Assembly: GCF_000236865.1 (NCBI RefSeq)
Contig: NZ_HE611015.1
Coordinates: forward strand, 151,983-215,982
Direction: 5' to 3'
Source: Senegalimassilia anaerobia JC110
Lineage (GTDB): Bacteria > Actinomycetota > Coriobacteriia > Coriobacteriales > Eggerthellaceae
DNA length: 64,000 nucleotides
Under the pieces are notes generated by a model. The model was not told where the DNA came from and searched no databases. It saw only the letters and a program-made list of their open reading frames with translations. Numbering within the stretch: the stretch's first letter is position 1; each line of letters starts with the position of its first letter. The translations under genes and the position numbers were made by a program. This document shows, one piece after another, positions 4,873 through 28,656 of this stretch.

Positions 4873-6141
4873 ATGCGCATCCTCTGCATCTCCGCCCAAA
4901 AGCCCGATAGCACCGGCAGCGGCGTTTATCTGGCCGAAACGGTGGCATCCCTGGCCGCCGCCGGGCACCAGGTGGCCGTCATCGCCGGCATCGACAAGGA
5001 CGACTCCCCGCAGCTCGCCCCTGGCGTCGAGTTCCTCCCGGTGCGCTTCCGCACTCCCGAGCTGCCGTTTCCCGTGTGCGGCATGAGCGACGTCATGCCC
5101 TACGAGGCCACGCGATACCGCGATATGACGCCGAAGATGGTCCAGGCCTTTCGCAGCGTGTTCGGGCGGCGTATCCGCGAAGCCGTGCTCGACTTCAAGC
5201 CCGATGCGGTCATCTGCCATCACCTATACCTGGCCTGCTCGGCCGCGTGCGACGTGCTTGACGATCTGGCCGGTGAATATCGGTCACCGATTGCGGAAGG
5301 TTCAGGACTCGCGAAGGGCCGCCCGTGCCCAATTTGGGGCGTTTGCCATTCAACCGACCTGCGTCAGCTGCGCAACCACGATCTGGAGAAGGACCGCATT
5401 GCGGCAGCTGTCCGCTCGCTCGACGGTGTGATGGCGCTGCACGAGGCGCAGAAGGCCGAGATCGCCGAGCTGTTCGACCTGCCCGCCGATCGCGTCCGCA
5501 TCGTGGGGACGGGCTACAACTCCCAGGAGTTCGCTCCTCGTGCCGGCTTGCGCGCTGCCCACCCGTTGCGCGTGCTGTACGTGGGCAAGATATGCCGCGC
5601 CAAGGGCGTGGAAAGCCTCATACGCGCTATGGGACTGCTTCCCCTCGATCCGCAAGCCGTGGAGCTGCGCCTGGTGGGCGGTTACAGCGACCAGGGGCAA
5701 TACGATCGCATCGTCGAGCTGGCCGGTGGCTGCCGTTTCCCGGTGGTGTTCGGCGGCCGCGTTTCTCAAGACGACCTGGTGCTTTCCTATAACGAAAGCC
5801 ACGTGTTCGCATTGCCCTCGTTTTTCGAGGGATTGCCGCTTGTGACGGTGGAGGCGCTTGCGAGCGGATGCCGCGCGGTGGTCACGAGCCTGCCAGGCGT
5901 TCGGCCGTGGCTCGATGCGTCCCTTCCGGACGCCCCCGTTTCATTCGTTGAGCCGCCGCGTATCCAGGGCGTCGACGTGCCCGTGCCCGAGGATCTGCCG
6001 GCCTTCGAGCAACGCCTTTCGGATGCGCTGCTCGAACAGCTTCAAGCGGCGGCGGAGCAGCCCCTTGGGGGAACCGGGTTCGACGCCACCGCCGTGTCTT
6101 GGGATTCGCTTGCCGCCCGCATGGTCGCGCTGGTCGGCTAG
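4873..6141 (+). CDS. GT4-type glycosyltransferase in the selenium cluster
   Basis: This is a 422-residue glycosyltransferase of the GT-B fold. The N-terminal domain starts RILCISAQKPDSTGSGVYLA, typical of the acceptor side. The C-terminal domain has VLYVGKICRAKGVESLI, VFGGRVSQDDLVLSY and the donor-binding ALPSFFEGLPLVTVEALASG segment with the two spaced Glu residues of the family. No signal peptide or membrane segment is evident, so it is cytoplasmic. The ATG at 4873 follows AAAGGA. It lies 54 bases after the desulfurase and may be co-transcribed. Sugar donor and acceptor are unknown; a cell-envelope or glycolipid role is as plausible as a selenium role. Confidence 0.8.
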   Translation: MRILCISAQKPDSTGSGVYLAETVASLAAAGHQVAVIAGIDKDDSPQLAPGVEFLPVRFRTPELPFPVCGMSDVMPYEATRYRDMTPKMVQAFRSVFGRRIREAVLDFKPDAVICHHLYLACSAACDVLDDLAGEYRSPIAEGSGLAKGRPCPIWGVCHSTDLRQLRNHDLEKDRIAAAVRSLDGVMALHEAQKAEIAELFDLPADRVRIVGTGYNSQEFAPRAGLRAAHPLRVLYVGKICRAKGVESLIRAMGLLPLDPQAVELRLVGGYSDQGQYDRIVELAGGCRFPVVFGGRVSQDDLVLSYNESHVFALPSFFEGLPLVTVEALASGCRAVVTSLPGVRPWLDASLPDAPVSFVEPPRIQGVDVPVPEDLPAFEQRLSDALLEQLQAAAEQPLGGTGFDATAVSWDSLAARMVALVG

Positions 6142-27280: not shown

Positions 27281-27315
27281 AAAAAGAACGGCTCCGGGAA
27301 TCCGGAGCCGTTCTT
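27281..27315 (-). terminator. Intrinsic terminator of rpsT (minus strand)
   Basis: The arms AAGAACGGCTCCGG (27284-27297) and 27302-27315 form a 14-bp perfect stem with a GAAT loop. Read on the minus strand it ends in TTCTTTTTT, a proper U-tract; on the plus strand it is weaker but may also stop holA transcripts. Confidence 0.85.
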
Positions 27316-27336: not shown

Positions 27337-27855
27337 CTATTCAGCAGCCTCTTCGCCCTCGGCGGCCTCGGCCTCAGCGGCAGCCTCGGCAGCGGCGGCC
27401 TCGGCGGCCTCCTTTGCCTTGCGCTCGGCGGCAGCGGCCTCGAGCTTCTGCTGCTCGGCAACGCGCTTGGCCTTCTCCTCGGCGGCAGCCTTGTAAGCGG
27501 CGGCCTTCTCAGCCTTGCGAGCGGCCTTCTTGGAGCCGGTGGCCTCCTGCTTCTTGGCCTCGGGCTTCACGTAAGCAGCGCGCACCTCATCGGTGACGAT
27601 GGTGTTGACGAGCGCCATCACGCCGGACTTGCGGTTAGCGGCCTGGTTCTTGTGGATAACGCCCTTGGAGACGGCCTTGTCGAGCAGACGGCAAGCGTAC
27701 AGGCCCTTGGCGTAAGCAGCGGTTGCGTCGCCGGCGGCAACGGCCTCGCGTGCAGCGCGGATGGCGGTCTTCAGCTCGGACTTGATGGCGCGGTTGCGCT
27801 GACGGGACTTCTCGTTGGTGATGTTGCGCTTCTTCTGGCTCTTGATGTTTGCCAT
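27337..27855 (-). CDS. rpsT: 30S ribosomal protein S20 with a long Ala/Glu/Lys tail
   Basis: S20 binds 16S rRNA early in small subunit assembly. The first ~85 residues are a normal S20 ([20 protein letters not shown], then [20 protein letters not shown]). Residues from about 90 to 172 form an extra tail, first Lys-rich and then Ala/Glu-rich, ending [12 protein letters not shown], predicted helical and of low complexity. S20 is usually 85-90 residues, so this is nearly double. The ATG at 27855 follows GAAGGAGT; this ribosome binding site can be masked by the leader. Confidence 0.95.
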
Positions 27856-27930
27856 TGTGAAACTCCTTCGCTTTAACGTGGTTTGCCGTTTTCGGCTTGC
27901 TCTGCGCATTCGGCGCAGCTGCGAAGGAGT
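27856..27930 (-). promoter_or_regulatory. rpsT leader that can sequester its ribosome binding site
   Basis: In the mRNA, ACTCCTTCGC (from 27930-27921) is exactly complementary to GCGAAGGAGT (from 27871-27862), which contains the Shine-Dalgarno sequence six bases before the ATG. Between them lie two further perfect hairpins: CTGCGC/GCGCAG with a CGAAT loop (27918-27902) and GCCG/CGGC with an AAAA loop (27896-27885). The whole can fold as a multibranch structure closed by the ribosome binding site. Confidence 0.65.
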
Positions 27931-28230
27931 GGGTGAGATGCACAGGTGACAGATTGGCATATGCACACAAGCGCTGAATGCGCGTGGTAAACGCATATGC
28001 GAGAATGGACAGGATTTCCCATTCAGCTAGCCAATCGGCCACCCGGCACCACGATAATCCTTCATGCAGCCTTGTCTGCGGATGCCCTGCGTAGATTGCA
28101 AGGGCGCGCATATGCCGGATACACAATGAGATAGAATAGCCGATATCGCACGGTTTTGCACCTGTTGATTTGCAGTTGTGCAGAACAATGCACAACTCGA
28201 TAGCACGTTTCATCCAAAAGGAGCTGAATA
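27931..28230. other. Divergent promoter region between rpsT and the lipoprotein gene
   Basis: A TAGAAT -10-like element at 28132-28137 could serve the plus-strand lipoprotein gene; no matching -35 was found. No gene is seen. The rpsT promoter should also lie here. Confidence 0.4.
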
Positions 28231-28656
28231 ATGGGCATTCGAAAGGCTGTCGTCTCCGCAGGCGCTGCTTTTGCACTAGCGATGGCGTTCACGCTCGTCG
28301 GCTGCGGTTCTGGCCAACATGAGGTTATCGACCAGGGGCAGGAATGCTCCAGCTGCCATTCGGGCGAGAAACAGGTTTACGACGTCGCCGCACCTTCGTC
28401 AGCCGTTCAATCAAGCGGAACCGTATTCGTCAAAACCTCTGCCGAGCAGGTTCTGGTCTGCAAACCTATCTTCGTTTCCCAGGACGGTTCAAAATTCGTC
28501 CCCGAGCAGGTCTCGTCGGCGAAGGTGGCCGACGGTTCCGCTCAGCTTCAGCTGTCCGAAGGCACATGGGCGATTTGCGTGAACGGGCAAAGCGTCAAAG
28601 CCCAGCTCGTCACGGTATCGCCGGAGGTTTCAGGGCCCGCTGACGTGGAATTGTAG
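28231..28656 (+). CDS. Putative lipoprotein with a single CxxCH motif
   Basis: This 141-residue protein of unknown function starts with a lipoprotein signal peptide (charged start, hydrophobic run, lipobox LVGC with Cys25). Soon after comes CSSCH (residues 39-43), which is the c-type haem attachment pattern, then a hydrophilic domain of about 95 residues with two more cysteines (VLVCKP, WAICVN). AAAGGAG precedes the ATG at 28231. It could be a small membrane-anchored monohaem cytochrome or simply a Cys-rich lipoprotein. No related gene is adjacent. Confidence 0.75.
   Translation: MGIRKAVVSAGAAFALAMAFTLVGCGSGQHEVIDQGQECSSCHSGEKQVYDVAAPSSAVQSSGTVFVKTSAEQVLVCKPIFVSQDGSKFVPEQVSSAKVADGSAQLQLSEGTWAICVNGQSVKAQLVTVSPEVSGPADVEL

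Follow-up and report, generated by a model that had tools for sequence, protein, structure and literature searches.

The catalogue of ribosomal protein leaders (r-leaders) compiled by Eckert and Weinberg in 2020 includes an L31 Coriobacteria motif; its Table 1 contains no S20 motif and S20 is not mentioned in the text, and in one row for L20 the gene is printed as rpsT, apparently for rplT (PMC7247131). In a 2024 review S20 is presented as a "curious case", since its autogenous control is believed to exist but no conserved operator structure has been found (PMC10931766). According to the same source, no measurable affinity of E. coli S20 for its mRNA has been shown, and the post-transcriptional feedback on E. 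coli rpsT, which is believed to target the initiation of translation, depends on the UUG start codon (PMC10931766). Further text searches of openly licensed papers (main text) revealed no rpsT/S20 leader motif, and the literature searched therefore agrees with the original prediction, which had regarded an S20 leader of such form as undescribed.

In the window analysed here, a stretch of 64,000 nucleotides from Senegalimassilia anaerobia JC110, rpsT is preceded by what we consider, with a probability of roughly 0.6, to be a new S20 r-protein leader that combines a five-helix sensor, two mutually exclusive folds and, as a lineage-specific output, a fold hiding the Shine-Dalgarno (SD) sequence. 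Like the catalogued r-leaders, the rpsT RNA is structured and covarying, would belong to a 5′ leader, and is confined to one ribosomal protein gene and one lineage. It is comparable in size and complexity to the cis-regulatory families of Rfam 15, but none of these matches it: release 15 gave no match at gathering scores in the window or in 20 loci, and searches relaxed to E 10 and to E 1 yielded no credible one, the few weak ones (e.g. sucC, E 0.14) lying far under the cut-offs. The covariance model of the L31 Coriobacteria r-leader likewise gave no match above its curated cut-off in the window or the 20 loci. E. coli rpsT is the same gene but has a UUG start without conserved structure, whereas a large conserved RNA and an AUG start are found here. 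The leader resembles attenuators and riboswitches in its compact sensor, for which a downstream strand would compete, and in the terminator or hidden ribosome-binding site that would serve as output; it differs from them in that coupling was computed in one of four terminator leaders and that both computed folds of the window leader keep the SD closed.

The fold beside the rpsT start codon

27337..27855, minus strand: rpsT, ribosomal protein S20 (TIGR00029, E 2.4e-25), with a long Ala/Glu-rich C-terminal tail; start codon at 27853-27855
27862..27871, minus strand: ribosome-binding region GCGAAGGAGU, which includes the SD; pairs with 27921-27930
27885..27896, minus strand: nested hairpin GCCG-AAAA-CGGC, 4 bp (fold and congener comparison)
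27902..27918, minus strand: nested hairpin CUGCGC-CGAAU-GCGCAG, 6 bp (fold and congener comparison)
27921..27930, minus strand: anti-SD strand ACUCCUUCGC, outer stem of the three-stem fold; pairs with 27862-27871

The original prediction held that the ribosome-binding site of rpsT can be hidden by a perfect 10-base complement lying upstream, with two further perfect hairpins nested inside. The outer stem ACUCCUUCGC/GCGAAGGAGU indeed comprises 10 bp without mismatch and with the SD inside (p ~0.005 against dinucleotide shuffles), and both hairpins are found exactly where they had been placed. The three-stem fold (88 nt) has a computed energy of -32.1 kcal/mol (z -5.14), with none of 200 shuffles being equally stable, and the SD has an unpaired probability of 0.012, shuffled sequences averaging 0.39 (p 0.01). 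Among 351 ORF starts within ~464 kb of the same genome, rpsT ranks 4 in anti-SD score, 11 in SD closure and 84 in fold energy. The first two ranks place the hiding of its SD within the top 1-3%, which is unusual yet not unique.

A start whose NrdR-like protein opens with MKCPACGNLESKVVD (position 5095, plus strand, of the joined L213-L225) has an anti-SD rank above that of rpsT in the genome sample; an imperfect 13-nt anti-SD complement, TGCACTCTTTTGT/ACGAAGGAGTGCG, lies upstream of it. As for rpsT itself, S20 of the window, with 172 aa, is roughly double the normal size, and its long C-terminal tail (27337-27600, minus strand) is rich in Ala, Glu and Lys; frames of comparable length are seen throughout the family. 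Immediately 3′ of the gene there is a strong intrinsic terminator (27284-27315, minus strand; 14-bp stem, T run), hence rpsT is probably monocistronic.

The rpsT leaders of 123 family genomes were compared, the genus of the window being represented by three species. One congener (G096/L003) has the same three-stem architecture, with an 8-bp outer stem and inner stems of 5 and 4 bp, the latter carrying one true compensatory change, and the junction ACCACGU is common to two of the three congeners, G096 included. In the congener G097/L002 the SD is hidden through a different inner fold. The SD is hidden in all three (p 0.01, 0.03 and 0.08), whereas in the family as a whole its closure stays at the chance level, p<0.05 being obtained in 5.7% of the 123 leaders; a family-wide anti-SD element, being no better than chance, was rejected. 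Three species of another genus (g33) possess a similar anti-SD and inner hairpins in a differing layout. Since conservation is so narrow (two of three congeners, the family at chance), the three-stem fold has to be viewed as a local and not a family-wide arrangement; covariation and a conserved complement, proposed earlier as the check on the three stems, proved largely absent beyond the genus of the window.

The stability of the fold (z -5.1), the hidden SD of the congeners and their common junction might be taken to mean that the 75-nt three-stem fold alone is the S20-controlled autoregulatory element and that the RNA upstream is unrelated to it. Such an explanation appears very improbable to us, because the same stems occur in two of three congeners with the family at chance level, because the anti-SD of other genera (g33) is laid out differently, and because conservation is far higher in the RNA upstream. 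The segment 27856-27930 makes up only the last third of the probable rpsT leader.

The conserved RNA upstream of rpsT

28156..28161, minus strand: candidate -35 GTGCAA of the leader promoter, with a 17-bp spacer to the -10 (sequence and congener alignment)
28133..28138, minus strand: candidate -10 TATTCT of the leader promoter (aligned leaders; putative start site)
27996..28119, minus strand: conserved five-helix leader RNA, sensor-like domain, ~124 nt (model R1, E 7.7e-15)
28113..28118, minus strand: helix P1, 5′ strand CCGGCA, pairing with UGCCGG; CCAGCG/CGCUGG in other genera
28084..28105, minus strand: helix P2, GCCC...GGGC hairpin, variable in sequence with strong covariation
28057..28083, minus strand: helix P3, AUCC-GCAG-ACAAGG-CUGC-AUGAA-GGAU, GCAG/CUGC nearly invariant
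28043..28048, minus strand: helix P1, 3′ strand UGCCGG, pairing with 28113-28118
28029..28040, minus strand: helix P4, GGCC-GAUU-GGCU (alignment and covariation)
28003..28024, minus strand: helix P5, GAAUGG-GAAAUCCUGU-CCAUUC, loop (G/A)AAAUCCYG conserved

In the alignment of the three congeners, the region 5′ of the SD-hiding fold is far better conserved than the fold, and the signature of a -10-like TATTCT followed by P1-P5 is present in most genera. In the aligned leaders, the candidate -10 position is occupied in most of the other genera by TGGTATTCT or TGCTATTCT. The candidate -35 is of weak consensus, and the sigma-70 scan made no call there.

A seed alignment of 27 leaders, built from sequence only, has 86.4% of its cells paired and a covariation of 0.290, compared with 0.176 after shuffling and at most 0.122 when slid. 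In the 71 distinct matches of the covariance model R1, 91.0% of the cells pair, compensatory changes on both sides are seen in 29 of the 33 pairs and the covariation reaches 0.449 (0.182 shuffled, 0/500; at most 0.103 when slid), values which lean towards the structure because this alignment was fitted to R1. The excess of G-U over A-C cells in the pairs (157 vs 55) favours the rpsT-sense strand as the structured one.

A search of 138 family genomes from 48 genera with R1 led to matches in 73 genomes and 32 genera, with exactly one copy per genome. All matches immediately precede rpsT and share its strand, apart from G041, in which a contig break leaves the two on separate contigs and prevents the check. 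Outside the family, no match was found in a class sample of 396 genomes or a phylum sample of 296. The family is taken to be Eggerthellaceae from the named loci that carry the RNA, namely Adlercreutzia sp. ZJ304 (L033), an Eggerthellaceae MAG (L035) and Candidatus Aveggerthella (L036). The absence of the RNA from about one third of the genera shows that it is dispensable. Both the existence of the RNA and its linkage to rpsT are well supported. The idea of an autoregulatory rpsT leader RNA thus stands in part: there is strong support for a structured regulatory leader, but the conserved RNA lies upstream of the fold for which it had been claimed, at 27996-28119.

The RNA might instead be a separate small RNA with its own terminator, situated between lepA and rpsT, the latter being transcribed from its own promoter. 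The strong promoter-like element that precedes the RNA, the terminators behind it in a few genera and lepA, which is usually the divergent neighbour of rpsT across the RNA, would all fit. In g15 and g16 (L135, L167, L203), however, the 3′ end of the RNA, which has the conserved -10-like element in front of it, is just some tens of nucleotides away from the start codon, and in L015 and L126 the terminator is located 40-70 nt 5′ of the rpsT start. Both arrangements leave scant or no space for another promoter, and in the latter two leaders rpsT is probably transcribed through the terminator. Furthermore, the RNA keeps its place in front of rpsT in g13 and g40, where lepA lies downstream of rpsT, no copy of R1 occurs away from rpsT in any genome searched, and the pairing P6 (below) ties the RNA to the region downstream of it. 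On these grounds a separate small RNA is judged quite improbable.

At positions 28171-28200 the window also contains an inverted repeat, GTTGTGCA-gaacaa-TGCACAAC, before a divergent lipoprotein-like gene (28231-28656); it is largely kept in the three congeners and is a possible operator.

Alternative pairing and the putative output end of the leader

28030..28049, minus strand: P6 sensor strand GUGCCGGGUGGCCGAUUGGC, overlapping the P1 3′ strand and P4; near-complete complement downstream
27938..27958, minus strand: P6 downstream strand GCCAAUCUGUCACCUGUGCAU, conserved in the three congeners

The sensor strand can pair either within P1/P4 or with the downstream P6 block, hence two mutually exclusive folds are predicted. 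An equivalent block complementary to the sensor strand is present in most genera, although it is poorly preserved in some (g22). In 15 sequences, the pairing (p 0.005) and the double changes (p 0.004) exceed those of random pairing of the same strands; the block was left-justified and aligned by sequence alone from hand-copied strings, the whole-leader MAFFT alignment having partly misaligned it. By duplex energy alone, P6 is better than shuffles in 15 of 70 leaders. For the window leader without ligand, the P6 fold was computed to exceed the sensor fold in stability by ~10 kcal/mol (-118.8 vs -108.7), and it is likewise the more stable of the two in the four terminator leaders examined (computed, without ligand).

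The genome contains the P6 downstream pattern twice, each time at the rpsT leader. Having only two genome copies, the inverted GCCAATCNGNCANC pair was considered as a promoter or operator. RNA pairing was preferred, because the pair matches P6 and P6 is present in other genera; a role as a DNA site is nevertheless possible. In g22 (L127, L128, L141, L146) part of the sensor strand is repeated 3′ of the P6 block and may pair with that block (CUAUCG:CGAUAG and CUGUC:GACAG, with a G-U intermediate), which suggests a three-way strand exchange. A corresponding helix P7 (downstream sensor-strand copy with the P6 block) is not claimed; it was seen in g22, with G-U intermediates, and is not general.

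The part of the leader 3′ of the conserved RNA varies between lineages. A hairpin followed by a U tract is clear in g9 (L126), g36 (L015) and g39 (3/3), weak in g7, and absent from the window and most genera; in the genus of the window the SD-hiding fold sits where other genera place this terminator. In L015, folding of the sensor raises the computed terminator from 46% to 99%, whereas in the other three leaders tested the terminator is essentially unchanged, so that it responds in one of four. For the window leader, the computed P6 and sensor folds both bury the SD, and the only computed alternatives in which it is free have much poorer energies (-101.0 and -97.6). A pairing between 27938-27945 and 27902-27909, which would open the SD, was rejected, its energy being poorer by ~11 kcal/mol than that of the sensor fold by itself.

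A non-regulatory SD-hiding fold, which lowers or protects rpsT expression and owes its stability to chance in a G+C-rich genome, would be compatible with the ranks within the genome (4 for the anti-SD, 84 for the fold energy) and with the narrow conservation. This explanation nevertheless seems unlikely, as the anti-SD is retained in G096 despite a fast-changing leader and the fold occupies the position of the terminators of other genera.

The preferred reading, an S20 leader with a lineage-specific output, would operate as follows. The gene would be transcribed with a leader of ~260-270 nt, of which the first ~124 nt would form the conserved sensor-like RNA with its five helices. In this sensor, the 3′ half (P1 3′ strand and P4) would pair internally or, through P6, with the downstream block, and the lineage-variable end of the leader would be the output, namely a terminator in some genera and the SD-burying fold in the genus of the window. 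Free S20 is the putative ligand and would repress by stabilising the sensor fold; if it does so, the result for L015 and the closed SD of the window both point towards repression. The sensor would also be coupled to the buried SD.

The putative ligand and the lineages without the RNA

S20 is a primary 16S binder, and mimicry of the rRNA site of the protein is common, although not required, in r-leaders. An rRNA-like element had been named, beside free S20, as a candidate for controlling the opening of the fold; it was sought by comparing the leader and the motif cores with the rRNA of the same organism, and no meaningful match was found. One 11-mer is shared by the leader and this rRNA; it is not conserved, and it presumably lies outside the S20 binding site. 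As no resemblance of the leader to 16S rRNA was found, it is solely the linkage to the gene that points to S20 as the ligand, and S20 is a plausible regulator of the leader.

The same lack of 16S resemblance would suit a cis-regulatory rpsT leader that senses a signal other than S20, such as a metabolite, another protein or the state of translation or assembly, and the five-helix core with near-invariant loops (GCAGAC..GGCUGC, AAAUCCYG) and two exclusive folds is riboswitch-like. However, throughout the family, class and phylum samples the RNA was found solely before rpsT and before no metabolic gene, and exclusive linkage to one gene is typical of ribosomal protein leaders; a non-S20 signal is therefore regarded as rather doubtful. 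The presence, in a family of gut bacteria, of a large and strongly covarying RNA attached only to rpsT gives the question of S20 autocontrol a concrete, testable RNA. The family also provides a natural series of one sensor with different putative outputs, and a comparison with relatives that lost the RNA.

The start codon of rpsT is ATG in 71 of the 73 RNA-bearing leaders of the family and GTG in 44 of the 50 leaders without the RNA (raw counts, phylogeny ignored). A weak start codon is thought to be important for the control of S20 in E. coli (PMC10931766). Hence the conserved RNA and a weak start codon may be alternative means to tune S20. The chances are about even, in our estimate, that the RNA is the first conserved S20 leader, a bistable switch of most Eggerthellaceae-type genera with terminator or SD hiding as output, whose loss tracks the change from ATG to GTG.

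In the RNA-less lineages g4, g8, g10, g11, g21, g28, g44 and g46, which have a GTG start, a short GUUUCGUCUGGAAAC-like hairpin was observed just 3′ of an extended -10, with variants such as GCUUU/AGAGC. It is located ~30-60 nt before the rpsT start in L006, L140, L165, L168, L182 and others, and may represent a different, 5′-terminal rpsT leader motif.
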